Shown here piece by piece: positions 1,328 through 28,314 of a stretch of DNA of 29,429 bases. Under the pieces are notes generated by a model. That model searched no databases. It worked only from the letters and a program-made list of their open reading frames with translations, and was not told the origin of the DNA. The number at the start of each line of letters is the position of its first letter. Within the stretch, counting starts at the first letter, position 1. This DNA is from JBDREC01 sp043820105 [NCBI: Pseudomonadota bacterium] (GTDB lineage Bacteria; Bdellovibrionota_F; JAHFAK01), in the NCBI GenBank assembly GCA_043820105.1, contig JBDREC010000092.1, forward strand, positions 1 to 29,429, read 5' to 3'. Made by a program: the position numbers and the translations under genes.

Positions 1328-2293
1328 TTAAATAGACTCTTTAATTCGTTCTAATTCAATTTTTCTTTGCCTTAAACGGGCTATGGCTTTATTGCACCAG
1401 GAATCATTTCTGCATTCTGAGAATTCTTCTATTGCACTTTCTATTTTATCTTCTTTTTCATATAAAACACCAATATTATGGTGAATTGCTGCTTCATCTT
1501 CAGGAAGCAAGCCTTCGCCTTTTAATATTTCTTCCCAAAGGATTTTTGCCCCTTTTAGATCACCATTTTCTGCAATTTCGCCAGCCTCTTTAATTCTTGA
1601 ATCTTCTCCATTTCTAAACTTCCTTTTTACCTTTACAAAATATGGAAGGATATCACTCATAATTTTAGGCATTAAATCTTGAATCATGTCTTCTGTTACA
1701 TATTCCCAATTATCAAAGGTCTTAGCAACTTCATATTCATTTTTACCAGTAGCATAATCAGATTTATATTTTCTATGAACATTGGCGCCTGCTAGCTTTC
1801 CTTTACCGACAAATACAACTTCATATCTTAGATTTAAATCATATTCGCGTCTGACTTCCCAATATTTTTTCTTACCAATAACTCTACCATCTTTATAAAC
1901 ATCTTCTGTTTTTCTTTCCTTTGAATCTTGCACCTCAATTTCACCGGATAAATCTATCTTATATTTTGCATTATGTTTATAAGTTGCAAATTGATTTTGA
2001 GCAATCTCACTTCTCATTATTTGCTCAAGTGATTTTTTTAATTCTTCTGAGCCTGACCAAGTTTCAAGGGCGTTTCCAGCTACAGCACCAACAGCTCCCC
2101 AAAAGCCTTTGCCTTGTTTTTTTAGAAGATGAAGTTTTGGGTGAACTGCAACTTTGCCAATTTTAAAACTTGGTTCTTTGCCAAGAGAAAAGCGAGCAGG
2201 TTTTAGCTGATGGTATTTAATTGAAGGAGCACAAGAAAAAAGAAATAAGCAAAAGAAAAGTGCAAATGATATTTGCATAAATAATTTATTCAT
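1328..2293 (-). CDS. Lipoprotein with C-terminal TPR-like helices
   Basis: 321 residues. The N-terminus is a lipoprotein signal with lipobox L-F-S-C (Cys21), so the product is probably anchored to the cell envelope. The middle (about 40-190) is a mixed region with a glycine-rich stretch (G-F-W-G-A-V-G-A-V-A-G-N-A) and beta-type segments (Y-K-I-D-L-S-G-E-I-E-V-Q, Y-D-L-N-L-R-Y-E-V-V). The last 90 residues resemble TPR hairpins (A-E-N-G-D-L-K-G-A-K-I-L-W-E-E, then I-G-V-L-Y-E-K-E-D-K-I-E-S-A-I-E-E-F), a protein-protein interaction fold. I do not recognise a specific family. The ribosome site is weak (GAG about 6 bases before ATG). The 52-residue secreted gene lies upstream on the same strand, 74 bp away. 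Function unknown. Confidence 0.8.
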   Translation of the reverse strand: MNKLFMQISFALFFCLFLFSCAPSIKYHQLKPARFSLGKEPSFKIGKVAVHPKLHLLKKQGKGFWGAVGAVAGNALETWSGSEELKKSLEQIMRSEIAQNQFATYKHNAKYKIDLSGEIEVQDSKERKTEDVYKDGRVIGKKKYWEVRREYDLNLRYEVVFVGKGKLAGANVHRKYKSDYATGKNEYEVAKTFDNWEYVTEDMIQDLMPKIMSDILPYFVKVKRKFRNGEDSRIKEAGEIAENGDLKGAKILWEEILKGEGLLPEDEAAIHHNIGVLYEKEDKIESAIEEFSECRNDSWCNKAIARLRQRKIELERIKESI

Positions 2294-2804: not shown

Positions 2805-3431
2805 CTAAATTTTAAAGTATGCTTTTATTCCTTGTAATATGTACTCAGTTGCAATTGAAGCAAGGATCAAACCCATGACCCTTGTGACAATGTTTAAACC
2901 GGTTTGGCCTAAAAACTTAAAAAGCTTTTCACTTAAGAATAAGATTAAGTAAAGAATAAGTGATGAAAGAGCTATACATAGAATTAAAATTGTCCAATGG
3001 CTAAATGTTGTTGTTTCACTGGAAATTAAGACAAGGGTTGAAATTGTACCAGGGCCCGCTATCATGGGTATGGCGAGTGGAAAAATTGAGACGTCATCTT
3101 TATCAAGGCTTTCTCTGTGTTCATCTGGGGTAACACGCACTTTGGATCTTTTGGCTTGTAACATGTTTATGGCCATTAAAATTAGCAGCAATCCACCCGC
3201 TATTCTAAAAGAGTTTATAGTGATACCAAATAATTTAAAAAGCGAAGTTCCAAAAAAAGCGAATACTATGCACAAAAGAAATGAAGTTGTGATTGTTTTT
3301 CTTATGATTTTTAATTTCTCTTCTTCAGTATTATTTTCTGTTAATGAAATGAATATTGGGATTATAGAAAATGGACCCATAATAATAAAAATTGTGGTAA
3401 AGGTTTTAACAGCATATAATAAAATATCCAT
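2805..3431 (-). CDS. MarC family (UPF0056) integral membrane protein
   Basis: 208 residues with about six transmembrane segments, the normal size for MarC/UPF0056 inner-membrane proteins. Recognisable family stretches are I-I-M-G-P-F-S-I-I-P-I-F near the start, F-R-I-A-G-G-L-L-L-I-L-M-A-I in the middle, and F-P-L-A-I-P-M-I-A-G-P-G-T-I-S-T before the C-terminal half. The substrate is not established: the old link to multiple antibiotic resistance was withdrawn, and an amino acid or small-molecule export role is only suggested for relatives. The start ATG has AGGA about 6 bases upstream. The gene stands alone, with the dispersed repeat behind it. The family call is confident, the function is not. 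Confidence 0.9.
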   Translation of the reverse strand: MDILLYAVKTFTTIFIIMGPFSIIPIFISLTENNTEEEKLKIIRKTITTSFLLCIVFAFFGTSLFKLFGITINSFRIAGGLLLILMAINMLQAKRSKVRVTPDEHRESLDKDDVSIFPLAIPMIAGPGTISTLVLISSETTTFSHWTILILCIALSSLILYLILFLSEKLFKFLGQTGLNIVTRVMGLILASIATEYILQGIKAYFKI

Positions 3432-6741: not shown

Positions 6742-7764
6742 TTATTGGCAATCATCAAGCGAGGCAATTGCTTGAACTGTTCTTTCATACATAGTCCATT
6801 CACTTGCAACTTCGCCTGTTTCATAATCAAAACCAGCGATTTCAATTGTAAAGTAATTATCAGTTTGATCGCTAGCATCATCTAGGTCAAATTCATTGTC
6901 ATCTATTATTATTTCTATTGTTCCATTAACATAATTGCTATCAGCGCTTCTAAAAAAAGATCTTTCAGCGAAAATAAATTCAAATTCAGATTCAAGGCTT
7001 CCATTATCTGACATTTGAACAAAAGCTCTTTTAAATGTTTGACCTTGTAAAGAGTCAATAAGGTAATATTGAAAAGGGTTTCCGCCTTCTGAGGTAAATG
7101 TTTTTTCAAGTCTGATTATATAATATTGGAGACCATTTCCTGAAAAACTTATTCTTGTACCAGGAGAACCTGCACTATATCCAAACTTACCTTGTCCTGT
7201 ATTTGAATAAGAATCAATTGTACTTTTACATAATGATATATCATCAACTGGACAAATTTCATCGAAACCATCTGAGTCCTGATCAATACCATCACCGCAA
7301 ATTTCAATAGCACCTGGATATTTGCTAGCTTCAGTATCATCAGTGTCAGTATTGTCAGTAATATATCCGCTTGGTGCAAGACAAGCAGCTACTGAAGAAT
7401 TGGGATCACCAAAACCATCTTGATCTACATCTGCAAAAAAATCTATTACATCTTGTGCGTCTTCATCAATTTCACCATTACAGTTATTATCAATTTCATC
7501 ACAAAGTTCACTTGCTTCAGGATTTATTTCAATATTTGCATCATCACAATCACCTTCTGCTTCAGTATAACCATCTAAATCATTATCAATTAAACTTTCA
7601 TCAACAACCGCCTCTGGAGGAGTGTTATCGTCGATTGTGATTATCTCATCTGTGCTTTTATCTATAACTTCTTCTTCACCACCACATGAAATTATAATTA
7701 GTGATGCAAAAGTTAATAAAAGTATTATTGAAAAATAGAAAATAAGTTTTTGTAAGATATTCAT
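6742..7764 (-). CDS. Lipoprotein with MopE-type metal-binding (Asp/Cys-rich) repeats
   Basis: 340 residues. Lipobox I-I-S-C places the acylated Cys at 27. Residues about 57-175 form a run of acidic repeats of the 'putative metal-binding motif' (MopE-like) type: D-L-D-G-Y-T-E-A-E-G-D-C-D-D, then L-C-D-E-I-D-N-N-C-N-G-E-I-D-E, then D-V-D-Q-D-G-F-G-D, and a second Cys pair with I-C-G-D-G-I-D-Q-D-S-D-G. Such repeats are common in surface proteins of deltaproteobacteria and probably bind calcium or similar ions, with the cysteines in disulfides. The C-terminal 150 residues look like a beta-rich domain, not recognised. A strong AAGGAGGA lies 6 bases before ATG. It is transcribed divergently from the small secreted gene at 8006. 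Confidence 0.85.
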   Translation of the reverse strand: MNILQKLIFYFSIILLLTFASLIIISCGGEEEVIDKSTDEIITIDDNTPPEAVVDESLIDNDLDGYTEAEGDCDDANIEINPEASELCDEIDNNCNGEIDEDAQDVIDFFADVDQDGFGDPNSSVAACLAPSGYITDNTDTDDTEASKYPGAIEICGDGIDQDSDGFDEICPVDDISLCKSTIDSYSNTGQGKFGYSAGSPGTRISFSGNGLQYYIIRLEKTFTSEGGNPFQYYLIDSLQGQTFKRAFVQMSDNGSLESEFEFIFAERSFFRSADSNYVNGTIEIIIDDNEFDLDDASDQTDNYFTIEIAGFDYETGEVASEWTMYERTVQAIASLDDCQ

Positions 7765-7925
7765 TGGAATCCTCCTTGATTAAATCATCAAATATAATTT
7801 AATGCTATAAAAATGCCAAAATCTTATGTTTAGACTAAATTGTGTTATATCAATGCCTTAATGGTGTTTGGTCTTGTTTTTATAAATCTAAAAAAAGAGA
7901 AGTTTTTCCTTTTTTTACAAATTTA

Positions 7926-7954
7926 TTAACAATTTCTTGACCTGTGCTTATATT
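7926..7954 (+). promoter_or_regulatory. Probable sigma-70 type promoter of the 8006 gene
   Basis: TTAACA (7926-7931), a 17-base spacer and TATATT (7949-7954) match the -35 and -10 consensus at 5 of 6 positions each, with optimal spacing. A start near 7961 would place the short direct repeat in the 5' leader. Confidence 0.45.
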
Positions 7955-7957
7955 TTT

Positions 7958-7982
7958 CTTACCACTTACAGCTTACCACTTA
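7958..7982 (+). repeat. Short tandem repeat CTTACCACTTA in a 5' leader
   Basis: Exact 11-base copies at 7958-7968 and 7972-7982 (14-base period), with a weaker ACTTA copy after them. They lie between the predicted promoter and the ribosome site of the 8006 gene. Confidence 0.6.
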
Positions 7983-8005
7983 CTACTTAATAAAGGAGTT
8001 CTCAT

Positions 8006-8386
8006 ATGAAAAAATTATTAGCAGTTTCAATTTTTTCGATTCTCTTATTATCAAGCCTTGGCCTGGCTCAGGCAAACATTGATGGCGTTTATTCATTTAA
8101 GGCTAGGTTCATTGATGGGAAAGCAGACATGGAAAATTGGTGGGGTGTTATGGTTATTACTAATCCTACTATGAGCAGATTCTTTTTATCACCTGATAAG
8201 AAAACAGAAAAGTATTATGTTGGTACTATGAAAAATGATGGTAAATTTGTGAATCTCACTTTAACTTATTCTTATAAGGCCATGTATGTTGGCAATGTTC
8301 ACAAGAATATGTTTTACATGCAAGGCACTGATTTTGTAATTGAAAGCGAGGATAAAAAGTTTAAAGAAGTTTGGGTGAAAAAATAG
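8006..8386 (+). CDS. Small secreted protein of unknown function
   Basis: 126 residues with a clear Sec signal peptide (M-K-K-L-L-A-V, hydrophobic core, cleavage expected after A-Q-A at residue 23). The roughly 103-residue mature part is beta-type and basic, with N-W-W-G-V-M-V-I-T-N and several aromatic residues. It has no cysteines, so it is probably a compact periplasmic or extracellular beta fold. The start is set by AGGAG 7 bases upstream. It has its own likely promoter at 7926-7954, is divergent from the MopE-type lipoprotein gene, and converges on the zinc-ribbon gene with 8 bases between stops. No family is recognised. Confidence 0.75.
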   Translation: MKKLLAVSIFSILLLSSLGLAQANIDGVYSFKARFIDGKADMENWWGVMVITNPTMSRFFLSPDKKTEKYYVGTMKNDGKFVNLTLTYSYKAMYVGNVHKNMFYMQGTDFVIESEDKKFKEVWVKK

Positions 8387-18643: not shown

Positions 18644-19141
18644 ATGAAGAAAAAAGGCTTTACATTAGTTGAACTAATGATCGTTGTTGCTATTATTGGT
18701 ATCTTAGCAGCAATCGCAATTCCATCTTTTATGGCTTATATTAAAAAGTCAAAAAAATCAGAAGTTAATTCAGTAATCAATGGTGTATTTGCAGCAGAAG
18801 CTGATTACAACATTGACAATGCAAAATTTCACGTTTGTGCTGTTAAACCTTTAGCAGCAACTGGAAATAACTACAATGGATACAAAGTTTCTGGATCTCA
18901 AGGAATTTTTGCTGCTGATGGACCTGGTTTCAAAATCATTGGTTATGTTCCTGATCAAGATCTTTTATCTGGTGTTGCAGTTACATCCTCAGCCATTACT
19001 ACAGATGGTATAGTTCATGTATATCAAGATTTAGATGATGATGATACCCTCGGACATTATGAACAAGTATTTAAAAGAGATAAACTTGGTAGCGCAGATG
19101 CTTACAAACAAGGAGCAATGACAACAACAACAGAAGATTAA
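18644..19141 (+). CDS. pilA: Type IV pilin major subunit (PilA-like)
   Basis: 165 residues. The class III leader M-K-K-K-G is cut before [11 protein letters not shown] by prepilin peptidase. The mature protein has the N-methylated Phe1, the conserved Glu5 and the long hydrophobic helix [12 protein letters not shown]. The C-terminal head is beta-rich, with an acidic [14 protein letters not shown] strand typical of deltaproteobacterial pilins, and ends in a Thr-rich tail. Only one cysteine is present, so the usual pilin disulfide loop is absent. AAGGAG lies 8 bases before ATG. The gene is expressed from the sigma-54 promoter at 18532 under the triple enhancer, and ends at a strong terminator. 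No other pilus assembly genes are in the window. It could be a minor pilin, but the promoter and terminator favour the major one. Confidence 0.88.
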
Positions 19142-21461: not shown

Positions 21462-22808
21462 TTAAGCTTCATGAGGTAAGGGTCTTCTTTTGGGTCTGAA
21501 ATAGTGTCTGGGTGAATAATCAATTAAATCTGAAACTTTGCTCATGTAAATACAAGCATATCTTTCGATTTGATTAGCTATTCTGCTTGGTTCTTGCCCA
21601 GCTCTCATTAAAGGTCCCCAGAATTTATTGAAATTTTTTTCATATTCAACAATTAAAGATGAAATTTTTTCATCTATATTTTTTACTTTTTTAAAAATTG
21701 CATTTGATTCTGCATCGCTTTGTTTTTTAAATAAGAGTTGTTCCAAGGCTTCTTTTTCAATCATAAGCTTTGTTATCATTTCATGATTTTTTTGGCCTTT
21801 ATTTATTGCATTAATTTCTTCAGCGATTTCTTCTACTACTAGAGCCGTTCTCCAATTGCAAGATTTCTTAAGAGTTACCACATCTCCATAGATATGATCT
21901 CCCAGATATAGAATCTCATCTCCTTTTAAACCTAAATACTTTTCTACTGAAACACTGTTTCCTCCCTGGAAAACGCCACTTTCTAAGTTTCCAAAATGAT
22001 TTGTCATGCTAGCGTCTGAAATATTTACTTTGAGAAATTTGCGATTTGAAGTAAAAAAACTAGGTTTTTCTGATTGAGTAATAACTAAATCAAAAATATC
22101 AAGCCAGGTTCTGTTTTTATCAAGAAATGAATTTATGGTGTAATCCATTAATAATTTTGTGTAATGATAATCAGAATTAGTTATTATTTGCAAAGATTTG
22201 CCACTTGCTTTTAATTTTTCAAGGACTTTGACTAAGTTTTCATCCTTTATAATATATTTTTCAGTATTTTTTTTAACTTTATCTTTTAATGATCCATCAA
22301 TATGAGCTAAATCAATCATTTGAAAAATATCCATTGCAAGATCAGCATAATTGGGCTTATAATCTGAAAACAAATTGGAATTTGAATCAATAAAATCTAC
22401 TAATTGCAAATATAAAGAAGAAGCTGATATGGAAAATGTAGTATCAATTGATTCATATCTTTCCTCTCTTACATCAACTGATAGTTCTCTGTAGATCTTT
22501 GATGTATCTTTATAAAAAAGCTGTAGAGAGCCATGATAACATTTTTTAACTTTACCAAATAAACTTAATTTTAGTAAATTACCTAATTTTTTATCAATAA
22601 CCAGGCCCTTAATTACTTTATCATAATCAAATTTGAATTCTAGGATTTGACCTGGGTAATTTTTAATTTCTACAAGTTTTTTTAACATCTCATGGTAAGC
22701 CATGGTTTCAAACATTTTTGAATTATAGCGCACCAAAGTATAGTCCATGTCAAAGCCAATTGCTTTTATCTTTTTAAAATCCAAGACGCGATTAGTGTAA
22801 ATATTCAT
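21462..22808 (-). CDS. HAD-IG family 5'-nucleotidase (cN-II type)
   Basis: 448 residues, cytoplasmic. HAD motif I is F-D-M-D-Y-T-L-V-R-Y (nucleophile Asp20, acid Asp22), motif II is the I-I-T-N-S-D-Y-H segment, and motif IV is Y-L-G-D-H-I-Y-G-D-V-V-T-L-K-K. These, with the long cap region, match the HAD-IG/cN-II family, which removes phosphate from purine nucleotides such as IMP and GMP. The family is common in eukaryotes and is found in a limited set of bacteria, including Legionella and Bdellovibrio. AAGGAAA lies about 10 bases before ATG. It is divergent from the PRMT-like gene and leads the transcript that may include the beta-propeller lipoprotein. Confidence 0.9.
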   Translation of the reverse strand: MNIYTNRVLDFKKIKAIGFDMDYTLVRYNSKMFETMAYHEMLKKLVEIKNYPGQILEFKFDYDKVIKGLVIDKKLGNLLKLSLFGKVKKCYHGSLQLFYKDTSKIYRELSVDVREERYESIDTTFSISASSLYLQLVDFIDSNSNLFSDYKPNYADLAMDIFQMIDLAHIDGSLKDKVKKNTEKYIIKDENLVKVLEKLKASGKSLQIITNSDYHYTKLLMDYTINSFLDKNRTWLDIFDLVITQSEKPSFFTSNRKFLKVNISDASMTNHFGNLESGVFQGGNSVSVEKYLGLKGDEILYLGDHIYGDVVTLKKSCNWRTALVVEEIAEEINAINKGQKNHEMITKLMIEKEALEQLLFKKQSDAESNAIFKKVKNIDEKISSLIVEYEKNFNKFWGPLMRAGQEPSRIANQIERYACIYMSKVSDLIDYSPRHYFRPKRRPLPHEA

Positions 22809-22976: not shown

Positions 22977-23915
22977 ATGGAACAATATTTTATTAATTAT
23001 GCTAGTCTTGATCAGCAACGTTGGATGGTATCTGACAAACCTCGCACAGATGCTTTTGCAAGAGCAATAGCTGAAGTTGTAAAACCAGGTGATTTTGTTA
23101 TTGATGTTGGGGCAGGTACGGGTGTTCTATCTCTATTAGCCGCAAAAGCAGGGGCTAATCGTGTGATTGGTGTTGAACAATCAGAGATAGCTAATTTTGC
23201 AAAAGAACTCATTTTGCATAATAATTTTGATTCTAAAATAGAAATTATTCAAAGTAATGCCTTTAAATTGCAGCTTGATGAGCCTGCTGATTTAATTGTT
23301 AGTGAATGGTTGGGGCATATGGCTTATGTGGAAAACATGTTTCGCTCTGTCATTCATGTTCGTGATGCTTGGCTTAAACCTCAAGGGACCATGATTCCTT
23401 ATTCTGTGGATGTAATGCTAGCTCCAATTGATGATGTGGAATTTTACAATGAGCATGGTCCTGGATATTGGGAAAAAAGCAATATCTATGATATTGATTT
23501 TTCTTGTTTTACACAAAAAGAATTGCAAATGGGGCATTCAAGTAAAATGCTTATTCCTGATAAATTTCTTCTAGCAAAAGGAAAATCTATTCATCACCTG
23601 AATTGTATTGATGCAAAACCTAATGATGAGTGGTGCCTGGGATCAGTTGAATATGAAATTGAGCGTGATGGTATGATAAATGGATTCGCAGGTTGGTTTA
23701 GCTCCTTACTATCCCCAAATGTTATTTTAGATACAGCACCAAATTGTCCACGAACTCATTGGGAACAGACTTATTTTCCATTTTATCCCATGGAGGTAAA
23801 GGCTGGTCAAATTATTAAGCTAGATTATCGAATGGATGAACCTTATGAGGACTCACGTTTAATGGAACTAGCTTTGCGTATTGGTAAGAAAGAAATTAAT
23901 TATATAATTGATTGA
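22977..23915 (+). CDS. PRMT-like protein arginine methyltransferase
   Basis: 312 residues. It starts with Y-F-I-N-Y-A-S-L-D, equivalent to the Y-F-x-x-Y helix of PRMTs. The SAM site is V-I-D-V-G-A-G-T-G-V-L-S (residues 41-52), with post-I acid Glu67 in G-V-E-Q-S-E. The double-E loop is S-E-W-L-G-H-M-A-Y-V-E, with Glu110 and Glu119 nine residues apart, as in human PRMT1. The THW loop is T-H-W-E-Q-T-Y-F-P-F (260-269). Together these are the active-site parts that hold and methylate arginine. After the Rossmann half comes a beta-barrel half ending near 310, as in the minimal PRMT core. Bacterial members are uncommon, and the target is unknown. The ribosome site is weak. It is transcribed alone and divergently from the HAD nucleotidase. 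Confidence 0.8.
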   Translation: MEQYFINYASLDQQRWMVSDKPRTDAFARAIAEVVKPGDFVIDVGAGTGVLSLLAAKAGANRVIGVEQSEIANFAKELILHNNFDSKIEIIQSNAFKLQLDEPADLIVSEWLGHMAYVENMFRSVIHVRDAWLKPQGTMIPYSVDVMLAPIDDVEFYNEHGPGYWEKSNIYDIDFSCFTQKELQMGHSSKMLIPDKFLLAKGKSIHHLNCIDAKPNDEWCLGSVEYEIERDGMINGFAGWFSSLLSPNVILDTAPNCPRTHWEQTYFPFYPMEVKAGQIIKLDYRMDEPYEDSRLMELALRIGKKEINYIID

Positions 23916-24106: not shown

Positions 24107-24820
24107 ATGATAAAATTTAATTTGGAAGATCTGGACGATATTAAACAAAAAGGTTTATACTTGAAGCTCGAGGATTCTACTACTTTAGAGCTTTCCCAAA
24201 GTGTAATAGAAGAAAAATATAATAATTTTATTCAAGATCCATCTTTATTTACAGAGGAAATGAAGGAGATATCACAATTTAGAAAATGTGCTGTATGTCC
24301 ATATAAAGACGATAAAAAGGTTGTTTGTACAGCTTTAAAACCGATAATTCCTTTTCTACATATTGTAGATAAATATGTATCCTTTAATAAGATTTTCGCA
24401 ATCTATAAATATGATGAAACAAAATCATTTGACTTAGCTATAACTGATATGCAAAGTGGAATAAAGTATTTATCTGTTCTTTCTCTTTTTTATTATTGTT
24501 CAGCAGGTCTTAAGTATTGGAAGTATTTTGCGGGTATTAAGCCACTTATGAAAGTTGAAGAGATTGCTATAAAATTATATTTAAATATTTATCAACATTG
24601 TGGTGGAAATAAAAATATGATTGATGATTTGCTTGCTAAATTTATGTTTGATATAAAAATCATTAATAAAGATATTGTACATAGATTAAGACTAATATGT
24701 AAGAACGATGTTTTTTATAATTCTTTTGTAAGTGCCCAGGTAATACCCGAGTTTTTAACACTTGATATTGATGAAATAGTTAAAAAACATTTTATTGAAC
24801 ATGAGAAAAAAGCTTTTTAA
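24107..24820 (+). CDS. Conserved-looking cytoplasmic protein with C-x2-C-x9-C motif
   Basis: 237 residues. AAGGAG lies 6 bases before the ATG. The central feature is F-R-K-C-A-V-C-P-Y-K-D followed by V-V-C-T-A-L-K-P-I-I-P-F-L, giving Cys61, Cys64 and Cys74 next to a proline. This pattern fits a metal or iron-sulfur site, or a redox switch. It is followed by mixed helices. There is no signal peptide or membrane segment. It is the first gene of an operon with the sensor kinase (26-base gap) and response regulator, so it probably feeds into or modulates that pathway. I recognise no named family. The position before the kinase is the main clue to function. Confidence 0.75.
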   Translation: MIKFNLEDLDDIKQKGLYLKLEDSTTLELSQSVIEEKYNNFIQDPSLFTEEMKEISQFRKCAVCPYKDDKKVVCTALKPIIPFLHIVDKYVSFNKIFAIYKYDETKSFDLAITDMQSGIKYLSVLSLFYYCSAGLKYWKYFAGIKPLMKVEEIAIKLYLNIYQHCGGNKNMIDDLLAKFMFDIKIINKDIVHRLRLICKNDVFYNSFVSAQVIPEFLTLDIDEIVKKHFIEHEKKAF

Positions 24821-24846: not shown

Positions 24847-27321
24847 ATGGAAAAACATATTAGAAGAAAGATAATTTTTCCTTTTGTGATTATTATGCTT
24901 TTGGTTTCATCAGTTTTATTTTATACAACATATAAGCATGAAGTTGATGATTTAAATGAAAATATTTCGCACAGATCACAAATGATTAAGCATCATTTTA
25001 ATCATTTTCTATTAAAAGACGCTGAAGTTATGAGTGGATTAATGGATTTGCTTGTCCATGATAAAACAATATTAAAAACCTTCGAAGAAAATGATCGAGG
25101 CAAGTTATTAGATTTATCCTTGCCTTTATTTAATATGTTTAAGTCAAAGTATAGAGTAAGTCATTTTTATTTTATTGATACAAGTGGAAAATGTTTTTTA
25201 AGAGTTCATAATCCTGGGAAATATGGGGATGTAATAAATAGATTTACATTTAAAGAATCACAAAAAACTGGAAAGAGTGTTTATGGTATTGAACTTGGAA
25301 TTTTTGGGACCTTTACTCTTCGAAATGTTTTCCCTGTTAAAGTTAATTCAAAAATAATAGGTTACTTAGAACTTGGAGAAGAAATTGAGCATATTTCCCC
25401 GATGCTTAAAGGCTTTTCAGAAACAGATCTTCTTTTTGTAATAAAAAAATCCTTTATAAATAAAGATAAGTGGGAAGAAGGCCTTGAAATGCTCGGCAAA
25501 ATAGGATATTGGGATAATTTAAAAGATTATGTAATAATTGATCAAACAATTCATGATGTATCTTTGGTATTTAAAGAGAAAATAATGTCTGTTGTAGAAG
25601 GAAACTCTAAAAAATTAAATATATATGAAATTGACGATAGAAAATACTCAATATCCAGTGTAAAATTAATGGATGCTGGTGAGCAGGATATAGGTGCTAT
25701 TATAATTCTGCATGATATTACAAAAAATATAATGCAGAAAAAAAGAGATATATTTTTAGTTGGGATAATTTATGTTTTTGGCTTGTTATTAATAGTTGCA
25801 GTTTTCTATATCTATTTAGGAAGGCTGCAAAAAAGCTTGACCATAGCTGGAGAGAAAATAAAAGATGCCAGTCATGTATGGCAAAAAACTTTTGATAGTA
25901 TTTCAGAACTTGTTTTTATTCTTGATAAGGATCACAGTTTTATTAAAGCAAATAAAGCAGCATACGATGTTCTGGGGGTTACGCAGGCTGACCTGGCAGG
26001 GAAGAAGTGCTATGAGGTCATACATAAATCAGATCTGCCATGGCATAATTGTCCCTTTGAAAAGTCTATGAAAGATGGCTTGCCCCACTCAGCTGAGGTT
26101 ATTGATGAAAGTCTAGGATGTCCTTTGTTAGTTAGTACCTCCCCGATTTTTAATGACAAGAATGAAATAATTGGAGGTGTTCATATTGCCAAAGACATTA
26201 CTAAAATAAAAGAATACGAAGAATCATTAAAAAGTGCAAAAGAATATGCAGAACTTATTTTTCAAGTTACACCCAGTGCAATATTTACAATTGATAAAAA
26301 CCAAATAGTTACTAGTTGGAACAAAACAGCTGAAAGTCTAACTGGTTTTAAAAAAGATGAAATGCTTGGAAAAAAATGCACAGAATTTGCATTGTTTCCT
26401 TGTTCAGAAGTCTGTGGCTTGTTTTCAGATAAGCTTGAAAAACCACTTGTTGCGAGAGAGTGTACGATAAAAACAAAAAGTGGGCTAGTTAAAAGTATTT
26501 CAAAAAATGCTGACTTGTTACATGATTCAAAGGGGAATTTCATTGGTGGAATTGAAAGTTTTGAAGATATTACAGATAGAAAGAAAGCTGAAATAGCCAT
26601 CAAAGAAGCCGCTGAAATGAAAACTCAGTTTGCTTCAATGGTATCACATGAATTGAGAACCCCATTAGGGCCAATTAAAGAAGGTGTAAGCATTGTTTTG
26701 GATGGCTTAACTGGAGAGATAAATGAAGAACAAATAGATCTTTTATCTACAGTAAGAAGAAATGCTGAAAGATTAAATAGACTAATAAATAGCGTACTTG
26801 ATTATCAAAAACTGCAAGCAGGGAGAATGAGATTTGATATTAAAGAAAATAATTTAAATAAAGTTATTGAAGAAACTCATAAATCAATGGTTTTAGTTAC
26901 AAATAAAAAAGGATTGGATTTTCAACTAAACTTAGATCAGGATATACCAAAAGTATTTTTTGATAGTGACAAAATAACACAGGTTTTAATAAATTTAACC
27001 AATAATGCTATTAAATTTACTGAAAAGGGGAGTATAAAATTCATTACAAAGTTAGAAAATTATAAAGTTGTTATAAGAGTTGAAGATACAGGGCCAGGGA
27101 TAAGAGAAGATGAGTTTCATAAATTATTCCAAAGTTTCGTTCAGCTTAGTCATTCAAAAGAAAATAAAATCAAAGGAACGGGTCTTGGCTTAGTGATAAG
27201 TAAAGAGATTGTCGAACATCACAAAGGAAAAATGTGGGTAGAATCTGAATTTGGAAAAGGATCTTGTTTCTGTTTTAGTCTTCCAATTAATAGTAAAGGA
27301 GATGAAAAAAATGAGTCATAA
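24847..27321 (+). CDS. Membrane sensor histidine kinase: dCache, two PAS, HisKA, HATPase
   Basis: 824 residues. TM1 is about 9-27 and TM2 about 302-323. The periplasmic part between them resembles the dCache_3 double sensor, with F-L-R-V-H-N-P-G-K-Y-G-D (117-128) and L-R-N-V-F-P-V near 158. Two PAS domains follow (about 345-455 and 470-585). Both are unusually cysteine-rich (K-K-C-Y-E-V, N-C-P-F-E-K, L-G-C-P-L; then K-K-C-T-E-F, F-P-C-S-E-V-C), and might sense redox or metals. The HisKA box M-V-S-H-E-L-R-T-P-L-G-P has His601. The ATPase has N-L-T-N-N-A-I-K-F-T, D-T-G-P-G-I and G-T-G-L-G-L-V-I. It ends by overlapping the response regulator by 11 bases, which is presumably its partner. Confidence 0.92.
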   Translation: MEKHIRRKIIFPFVIIMLLVSSVLFYTTYKHEVDDLNENISHRSQMIKHHFNHFLLKDAEVMSGLMDLLVHDKTILKTFEENDRGKLLDLSLPLFNMFKSKYRVSHFYFIDTSGKCFLRVHNPGKYGDVINRFTFKESQKTGKSVYGIELGIFGTFTLRNVFPVKVNSKIIGYLELGEEIEHISPMLKGFSETDLLFVIKKSFINKDKWEEGLEMLGKIGYWDNLKDYVIIDQTIHDVSLVFKEKIMSVVEGNSKKLNIYEIDDRKYSISSVKLMDAGEQDIGAIIILHDITKNIMQKKRDIFLVGIIYVFGLLLIVAVFYIYLGRLQKSLTIAGEKIKDASHVWQKTFDSISELVFILDKDHSFIKANKAAYDVLGVTQADLAGKKCYEVIHKSDLPWHNCPFEKSMKDGLPHSAEVIDESLGCPLLVSTSPIFNDKNEIIGGVHIAKDITKIKEYEESLKSAKEYAELIFQVTPSAIFTIDKNQIVTSWNKTAESLTGFKKDEMLGKKCTEFALFPCSEVCGLFSDKLEKPLVARECTIKTKSGLVKSISKNADLLHDSKGNFIGGIESFEDITDRKKAEIAIKEAAEMKTQFASMVSHELRTPLGPIKEGVSIVLDGLTGEINEEQIDLLSTVRRNAERLNRLINSVLDYQKLQAGRMRFDIKENNLNKVIEETHKSMVLVTNKKGLDFQLNLDQDIPKVFFDSDKITQVLINLTNNAIKFTEKGSIKFITKLENYKVVIRVEDTGPGIREDEFHKLFQSFVQLSHSKENKIKGTGLGLVISKEIVEHHKGKMWVESEFGKGSCFCFSLPINSKGDEKNES

Positions 27322-27673
27322 AATATTAATTATTGATGATGAAGTTGATGTAATGAAAATGGTAGTTTATAGATTAAAAGCTAAAAACTATGAAGTTTTT
27401 ACAGCAACAGATGGAAAAAGCGGGATAGAACTTGCAAAAGAAATAAAACCCGATCTTATAATACTTGATTACCATCTGCCTGATATGATGGCGTCCGAAA
27501 TATCTAAGATTATAAAAAGTGAAGAATCCCTGAAAGATGTTGAAATTATTTTAGTATCCGCAAGCGTTGAATACCTTAGCGATAAAGCAAAAGAATGTCT
27601 TGCAGCTGCATTTATTCCCAAACCCATAGAACCTGAAGAGCTTTATGAGAAAGTTGAAAAGTATATTAAATAA
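27311..27673 (+). CDS. Receiver-only response regulator
   Basis: 120 residues, a single CheY-like receiver domain with no output domain. Phosphoacceptor Asp53 is in I-L-D-Y-H-L-P, the acidic pocket is D9-D10 in I-I-D-D-E-V-D, the switch Ser is in I-L-V-S-A-S-V, and the conserved Lys is in I-P-K-P-I-E-P. The start is ATG 27311, with AAAGGAG 9 bases upstream. It overlaps the kinase gene by 11 bases. Earlier in-frame starts lie inside the kinase. It must act by protein contact, for example in a phosphorelay or on a motor or pilus component. A T-run just after the stop may aid termination. Confidence 0.9.
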   Translation: MSHKILIIDDEVDVMKMVVYRLKAKNYEVFTATDGKSGIELAKEIKPDLIILDYHLPDMMASEISKIIKSEESLKDVEIILVSASVEYLSDKAKECLAAAFIPKPIEPEELYEKVEKYIK

Positions 27674-27941: not shown

Positions 27942-28268
27942 TTATTCTATATTTGCACTGACAACAGCGGCCATCTGCATCATGTCGATCGTTTGGCCTT
28001 CTTTAAGCTTAGTAAGGTTAGTGACCTTGCCGGATTTGCTTTTGGAATTTGTATTTTTGAAAATCGAGAGCAATTTTGCATCTGCAACAATGAACTTGCC
28101 AGCGTTTTCAGGCTTTCCATTTACAATCTTTGTCTGAAGTTTGTTTGCTTTAATATAGTCCCATAGTTTTTTAGTAATCTCTGTTCTTGGAAGTTCTTTT
28201 GCCCCCAGAAACACAGCTAGATCACTTTTTAATTTTACAGGTTTACTTAATCCTTTTGCTTCTGCCAT
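27942..28268 (-). CDS. SWIB/MDM2-domain protein
   Basis: 108 residues that are almost entirely one SWIB domain. The pattern D-L-A-V-F-L-G-A-K-E-L-P-R-T-E-I is followed by K-K-L-W-D-Y-I-K-A-N-K-L-Q, then the D-A-K-L-L-S-I-F segment and a basic Lys/Ser linker. In eukaryotes SWIB is part of chromatin remodelling complexes. In bacteria it occurs free-standing or fused to topoisomerase (chlamydiae), and its role is not settled. The start is the second ATG (28268), because AAGGAG (28280-28275) sits 6 bases ahead of it. The ATG at 28283 overlaps that ribosome site. No tail or signal is present, so it is a cytoplasmic, probably DNA-associated protein. Confidence 0.85.
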   Translation of the reverse strand: MAEAKGLSKPVKLKSDLAVFLGAKELPRTEITKKLWDYIKANKLQTKIVNGKPENAGKFIVADAKLLSIFKNTNSKSKSGKVTNLTKLKEGQTIDMMQMAAVVSANIE

Positions 28269-28314
28269 TTTTATCTCCTTCATAATTAGATATAAATTAA
28301 ATTATCAGATTATA

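Follow-up and report, generated by a model that had tools for sequence, protein, structure and literature searches.

A predicted type I protein arginine methyltransferase of bacterial lineage encoded on a Bdellovibrionota_F contig

The locus and its gene neighbourhood

The window, by which we mean the whole 29,429-nucleotide stretch of contig JBDREC010000092.1 analysed here, carries a gene for a protein related to protein arginine methyltransferases (PRMTs), which we call P0001 (Table 1). Its coding sequence runs from ATG to stop in a single reading frame of 312 codons, the one frame read on the opposite strand contains many stops, and the start codon is backed by alignment, with a methionine at the equivalent position in nine other members of the close clade described below. 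On one side lies a divergent nucleotidase gene; on the other, a DUF6901-like gene, a histidine kinase and a response regulator follow in that order. An Rfam scan of the window returned no family at gathering score, and a promoter scan gave nothing better than shuffled sequences.

Table 1. Features of the PRMT-like gene and its surroundings in the window
Feature	Position	Strand	Basis or remark
Coding sequence of type I PRMT-like protein P0001, 312 aa	22977..23915	+	Open reading frame, homology, starts of relatives
YFxxY motif, residues 4-8 (Y4-F5-x-x-Y8)	22986..23000	+	Aligned with PRMT1/Hmt1/CARM1
M17, column of PRMT1 M48 (product-specificity methionine)	23025..23027	+	Alignment; role from PMC8619983
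SAM-binding motif I VIDVGAGTG, residues 41-49	23097..23123	+	Sequence, alignment
Double-E loop, residues 109-121, with E110 and E119; M121 in column of PRMT1 M155	23301..23339	+	Alignment
C-terminal barrel/oligomerisation region, Pfam PRMT_C residues 146-294	23412..23858	+	46 bits, AlphaFold model
Putative dimerisation arm, about residues 152-188, helices 154-160 and 176-184	23430..23540	+	PRMT1 arm alignment, model
THW loop, residues 260-262, inside P-R-T-H-W-E-Q	23754..23762	+	Alignment
HAD-type 5'-nucleotidase (cN-II), divergent	21462-22808	-	Flanks the PRMT gene
Gene weakly like DUF6901	24107-24820	+	191 bases downstream of the PRMT gene; Pfam 25.9 against cut-off 27
dCache-PAS-PAS histidine kinase	24847-27673	+	End overlaps start of the response-regulator ORF
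Stand-alone small SWIB-domain protein	27942-28283	-	60.7 bits
Putative tRNA-Cys (perhaps a false positive)	2116-2194	+	ARAGORN; antisense within ORF 1328-2293 (-)

The cN-II nucleotidase, together with the SWIB protein, had initially been read as a hint of genes shared with or acquired from eukaryotes. The nucleotidase turned out to be an ordinary gene in Bdellovibrionota, found in 148 of 240 genomes at 37-53% identity, and is therefore no mark of such kinship. Among the four close Bdellovibrionota carriers of the PRMT it is present at threshold in G137 and G140 and absent in G206 and G033, and it was not found in four genomes of the class of G033. Another window protein is 37-42% identical to proteins of Bdellovibrionota, Myxococcota and Verrucomicrobiota alike, so that protein identities place the source of the window only probably in Bdellovibrionota.

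We compared eight regions around relatives of the PRMT gene, both with the window and among themselves. In the four Bdellovibrionota regions, no window protein except the PRMT was matched at 1e-6, and the neighbours that the PRMT gene has in the window were absent. L100 and L101 encode a histidine kinase that partly matches the window one (34% and 26%), and L101 also has a 21% match to the window ORF at 2805-3431; we take the extra matches of the L099-L102 regions to window proteins as generic. Gene order is shared only between L095 and L097; their PRMTs have 88% identity, and a glycosyltransferase gene comes next. Since the neighbourhood is unconserved outside this one sister-genome pair, the context suggests no substrate.

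P0001 has the domains and predicted fold of a PRMT

Searching PDB chains with phmmer matched P0001 over nearly its full length to CARM1 (2e-38), PRMT3 (4e-37), PRMT6 (2e-36) and PRMT1 (4e-36), the best match spanning residues 3-280. Moreover, Pfam PRMT_C scores 46 bits (cut-off 27) over residues 146-294, and all 10 members of the close clade match this model at E <= 1e-3. The phmmer and PRMT_C matches together exclude a chance resemblance to PRMTs.

The methyltransferase half is matched by several general class I Pfam models, including PrmA (residues 29-114, 45 bits, cut-off 22). Although P0001 shares the class I SAM-binding domain with PrmA, it scores far below the cut-off of the equivalog TIGR00406 (29 bits against 183.15) and its C-terminal half is PRMT_C, and a PrmA identity was rejected. 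In the NCBIfam scan of P0001, every model remained below its cut-off. We also rejected a PRMT5 (type II) identity: PF05185 scores 20.2 bits against a cut-off of 22.9, and residue 17 is Met and not Phe, the mark of PRMT5 in the column of PRMT1 M48 (PMC8619983). Separately, the PADLOC mad2 profile matches P0001 at 63 bits, above the PRMT_C score; a defence-system reading was set aside, the profile covering residues 24-142 only, in the methyltransferase domain.

The AlphaFold model, built from 9 sequences, has a mean pLDDT of 89.1 and a pTM of 0.86, with low points in the arm (pLDDT 68-76 at residues 161-190) and at residues 1-6 (below 50). We compared it with known structures by VIA-align over the Foldseek top 1000 PDB chains. 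The best 50 PDB entries were all PRMTs, with Z 34.3-36.5 and nearly the whole model covered, including PRMT3 (2fyt; Z 36.5, rmsd 2.3, 303 residues aligned) and PRMT1 (1or8; Z 35.9), and the match to these two covers residues 5-312. The arm region appears both in the alignment with PRMT1 and in the model, which is of a monomer. The predicted structure thus contains the PRMT barrel, with PRMT3 and PRMT1 as top matches, and the full-length fold match and PRMT_C bear out the initial assignment to the PRMT class. By fold, the C-terminal barrel sets P0001 apart from plain small-molecule methyltransferases.

The type I active site is intact

The motifs named in the initial annotation, E110/E119, T260-H261-W262 and Y4-F5-x-x-Y8, lie exactly where it had placed them in the 312-residue translation, and their equivalence to PRMT1 was upheld: the columns are shared with rat PRMT1, yeast Hmt1 and CARM1, and, apart from Y4 and F5, with human PRMT6. 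YFxxY is likewise common to P0001 and PRMT3. In the alignment of these five proteins, Y8, M17, D20, R23, S109, E110, G113, E119, M121, W165, D174, S176, T260, H261, W262 and Q264 are invariant. Within the close clade, Y8, M17, D20, R23, S109, E110, W111, G113, E119, M121, W165, T260, H261, W262 and Q264 are kept in all 10 members, and F5 in eight. The two glutamates of the double-E loop stand nine residues apart. The SAM site consists of VIDVGAGTG (residues 41-49) and the acidic post-I residue E67, which is E in six and D in four of the 10 members, and D too in yeast Hmt1 and PRMT3.

P0001 therefore has in common with the eukaryotic type I PRMTs (PRMT1, PRMT3, CARM1/PRMT4, PRMT6 and Hmt1) the predicted fold, the double-E and THW loops, both methionines and the arm region, but it is only 27-33% identical to them, belongs to a separate bacterial clade, and has SEWLG in place of the SEPMG of CARM1.

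A review of PRMT1 assigns neutralisation of the target guanidinium to E144 and E153, positioning of the arginine for asymmetric dimethylation to M48 and M155, and stabilisation of the N-terminal helices to the THW loop (PMC8619983). In P0001, M17 and M121 take the place of these methionines and suggest asymmetric dimethylation of its substrate. The product-specificity methionine is preceded by H-E-E in PRMT1 but by Q-R-W in P0001, and thus the substrate preference of P0001 may differ from that of PRMT1.

These features lead us to predict, with good confidence, that the window gene encodes a cytosolic type I PRMT of bacterial lineage. We infer that it is active: SAM would be bound in the Rossmann domain, E110 and E119 would hold the guanidinium of a peptidyl-arginine, with the N-terminal helix and THW loop as a lid above it, and one terminal nitrogen would be methylated once or twice to yield mono- and then asymmetric dimethylarginine (ADMA). 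The working form is probably a dimer, and the substrates of such a stand-alone PRMT would most likely be proteins of the bacterium's own cell.

It is scarcely credible that P0001 is instead an inactive PRMT-fold protein retained as a partner or scaffold. Some relatives, such as L069 and the pair L113/L114, have indeed lost double-E residues, but all 10 clade members retain the active-site positions examined. Furthermore, dN/dS is below 1 in the two relative pairs in which it was measurable, at 0.048 for L065-L067 (dS 1.48) and 0.384 for L116-L117 (dS 0.89), the other 13 pairs, including every pair with the window gene, being saturated.

Location and candidate substrates

Bdellovibrionota include predators, and P0001 might be an exported effector that modifies proteins of prey or host, in line with the action on a host suggested at the outset. 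A precedent exists in Rv1988 of M. tuberculosis, a secreted arginine methyltransferase that acts on histone H3 (PMC10117894). We nevertheless regard this reading as very unlikely. P0001 starts at its first catalytic helix, the one bearing YFxxY, without an N-terminal extension, which would leave no space for an N-terminal export signal, and among nine other window proteins scanned with Pfam only one, prepilin-like (18644-19141), has a link to secretion.

The initial annotation had also proposed RGG-type bacterial proteins as substrates. We counted matches to a codon pattern for two RGG units (RGGRGG) on both strands of 30 genomes against a reversed control, a loose test that admits some Ser codons and uses the genomes of relatives and not that of the window. 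The four closest carriers, all Bdellovibrionota, showed no excess (matches/control: G137 1/3, G206 0/3, G140 0/4 and G033 4/4), nor did G882 (274/521), G796 (47/71), G473 (4/5) and G002 (32/56). Matches exceeded the control in two Planctomycetota carriers (G003 7/4 and G005 24/9). The same holds for some genomes without the gene among the 20 Bdellovibrionota taken for comparison (for example G104 9/5 and G169 3/2). The counts thus speak neither clearly for nor clearly against RGG substrates.

Distribution of relatives

A scan of GTDB contigs found at least 58 loci, nine of which (L007-L015) matched over most of the protein. We then searched genomes with the nine-row bacterial alignment at E <= 1e-20; phylum labels are those of the loci at the centre of each search, and the counts are lower bounds, many genomes having had only part of their first-look candidates scored. 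PRMT-like matches occurred in at least 20 of 240 genomes for Bdellovibrionota, 15 of 288 for Verrucomicrobiota, 35 of 246 for Planctomycetota, 51 of 235 for Myxococcota and 44 of 195 for the phylum of a Heimdallarchaeota record. In the phylum of a Paracoccaceae record, searched with the ten-row close-clade alignment, at least 28 of 398 genomes matched (best 7e-66); these 28 do not appear to belong to the clade, whose full-length members reach 1e-118 or better under the nine-row alignment.

Members of the close clade were found in at least nine of 1009 genomes of Bdellovibrionota, Verrucomicrobiota, Planctomycetota and Myxococcota (four, two, one and two, respectively), two of which (G002 and G003) were search centres picked as carriers and one of which (G137) holds a contig-end fragment. 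The view that such enzymes are uncommon in bacteria therefore fits the close clade, but not PRMT-like proteins in the wide sense, with at least 121 of the same 1009 genomes matched at E <= 1e-20. P0001 shares 60-63% identity with three full-length orthologues from Bdellovibrionota, 75% over 95 residues with the G137 fragment, and 56% with the Myxococcota orthologues. A canonical active site is also present in the Planctomycetota proteins L009, L104-L107, L109 and L111, while L108 has Leu in the M121 column and L110 has Asp for the second Glu.

No relatives turned up in viral contigs, whether these were scanned with P0001 alone or with an alignment of three rows, and phage records gave four matches that cover 18-39% of the query, within the methyltransferase domain. 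Plasmid records gave 13 matches, five with coverage of at least 80%; six of the 13 (three of the five long ones and three partial) were taken up, and L001-L004 were put into the trees.

Other PRMT-like groups with altered loops were noted alongside. Ten Verrucomicrobiota proteins (L084-L093) have an HEQMGD double-E loop and PHW replacing THW, and among the Asgard-phylum proteins L135-L144, eight of 10 have a CEMLS loop and a DGW end and two have a SEPIS loop.

Phylogeny of the window gene

Trees were built from loci returned by the searches and not from all matches; they are unrooted, and their eukaryotic sampling is thin. The main tree of 88 sequences left out the duplicates L080, L103 and L115, the fragment L072 and the odd sequence L005. 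In it, the window gene groups with three Bdellovibrionota and two Myxococcota proteins (100/100), the addition of Verrucomicrobiota and Planctomycetota proteins completes a clade of 10 (100/99), and this clade sits inside a bacterial clade of 24 (99/92). PRMT1, PRMT3, PRMT6, CARM1 and Hmt1 are united in another clade (100/100), to which the window gene does not belong. The placement of the window clade was unchanged in a tree to which PRMT7, PRMT8 and T. brucei enzymes were added and from which 15 further sequences, including the long-branch L069, were dropped for speed.

A clade of 13 (100/100), with long branches and a mostly unresolved inner order, unites PRMT7 and PRMT9 with proteins from bacteria, and bacterial proteins stand on either side of the split between the eukaryotic type I PRMTs and PRMT7/9. 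The 100/100 branch keeps P0001 apart from this clade, and a PRMT7/9 type was rejected. The bacterial proteins of PRMT7/9 type (L001-L004, L070, L071 and L073-L079) belong, like P0001, to the PRMT superfamily and keep both double-E glutamates. The nine from Bdellovibrionota (L070, L071 and L073-L079), however, begin this loop with TEIFD or AEIFD and have SCW (seven of nine) or SSW (two of nine) at the place of THW. They represent a second PRMT-like family in this phylum, near PRMT7/PRMT9 (L070 matches mouse PRMT7 at 3e-52). Ten Asgard proteins, with altered loops, were placed elsewhere in the tree.

As for the plasmid-borne proteins, L001, L003, L004 and L005 are annotated as '50S ribosomal protein L11 methyltransferase' and L002, of PRMT7/9-like type and with TPR repeats, as a TPR protein; these names are probably wrong. 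The plasmid relatives bear on whether the target of the PRMT fold is a guanidine-bearing small molecule or peptide natural product instead of cellular proteins. The distant PRMT-like L003 of a Pantoea plasmid adjoins Rieske, ATP-grasp, iron-containing redox and MFS genes, and four of the six plasmid relatives carry the L11 methyltransferase name. We consider such a target unlikely for P0001, however, as L001-L004 fall in the PRMT7/9-like group outside the window clade, no biosynthetic cluster was recognised around the window gene or among ten scanned neighbours of relatives, and the entire peptide-arginine site is conserved.

Origin and spread of the close clade

The initial annotation saw a hint of genes shared with or acquired from eukaryotes; the donor might have been, for example, protist prey or a host. 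Some observations favour such an origin. CARM1 (135 bits) and PRMT1 (128 bits) outscore the best plasmid-borne bacterial relative (85 bits). The only bacterial protein in the eukaryotic type I clade of the 88-sequence tree, L015, is nested beside CARM1 (100/99), while its flanking ORFs, inspected by eye, look bacterial, and a real case of transfer may therefore exist. Furthermore, in approximately unbiased (AU) tests, whose groupings were defined only once the first tree had been inspected, grouping the 10 close-clade members with all sampled eukaryotic type I PRMTs was not rejected (p 0.154), which makes a transfer from a stem eukaryote possible. The same tests on a 33-sequence tree, however, rejected placing the 10 with CARM1 and L015 (p 2.4e-6) or with PRMT1, PRMT3 and Hmt1 (p 1.7e-11); the window gene was thus not copied from either of these branches. 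Bacterial relatives are also nearer over the full length than the eukaryotic PRMTs, and the eukaryotic type I clade leaves the window gene outside. Recent acquisition is not supported, given these rejections and the gene's membership of a bacterial clade of its own, and we regard a eukaryotic origin as highly improbable. The window clade may still have an old link to the common ancestor of the eukaryotic type I enzymes.

L015 itself (6860-8290), from a Polyangiaceae (Myxococcota) MAG, is a CARM1-like PRMT that, in contrast to the window gene, may have passed from a eukaryote to a bacterium.

Lateral transfer between phyla has probably spread the close clade. The two Myxococcota members fall with the Bdellovibrionota ones (100/100), and occurrence is patchy: in one Bdellovibrionota family, the gene is present in three of 76 genomes, alongside one PRMT7/9-like match. 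The PRMT also shares 61% identity with that of G140, whereas two other window proteins reach 46% and 40%. Its 56% identity to the Myxococcota orthologues is above the best value (53%) that two other window proteins attain in any Bdellovibrionota genome searched, a contrast that suggests lateral transfer but could alternatively reflect strong constraint. The gene has a GC content of 36.0%, against 32.1 +/- 2.5% for 23 other window genes, and a GC3 of 22.0% against 22.4%; these values give no clear signal of foreign composition.

Discussion

PRMT-catalysed arginine methylation is usually presented as a feature of eukaryotes. Prokaryotes are nevertheless yielding more and more evidence of arginine methylation (PMC8466066), and predicted bacterial PRMTs are already in print, including two in L. 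pneumophila Paris (PMC10117894), which, like Rv1988 (PMC10117894), were compared with P0001 by description only. A review of PRMT7 mentions bacteria as expression hosts (PMC8399567). In the open-access literature on bacterial and prokaryotic PRMTs, we recognised no description of the close clade among the matches listed.

Taken together, the sequences lead us to propose, tentatively and at rather less than even chances, that PRMTs radiated in bacteria before or beside the eukaryotes, that Bdellovibrionota, Myxococcota, Planctomycetota and Verrucomicrobiota may have working type I PRMTs that make ADMA on their own proteins, and that the eukaryotic type I enzymes and PRMT7/9 may have been drawn from this bacterial pool. 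This reading follows from the eukaryotic type I enzymes forming one branch among bacterial proteins, from PRMT7/9 lying inside a mixed clade, and from the Asgard proteins falling elsewhere. Early transfers from eukaryotes could also have taken place, given the unrooted trees, the unresolved PRMT7/9 order and the thin eukaryotic sampling.

One carrier, L007, is Pelagicoccus mobilis KCTC 13126, which, judging from its strain name and collection number, is presumably cultured. Deletion of the gene in this bacterium combined with methylarginine proteomics would be feasible in principle. A bacterial clade with an intact type I site offers a handle on ADMA in bacterial proteins and on the origin of the eukaryotic enzymes. 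Its interest therefore extends beyond a single gene, as the diversity of bacterial PRMTs bears on where PRMTs came from.
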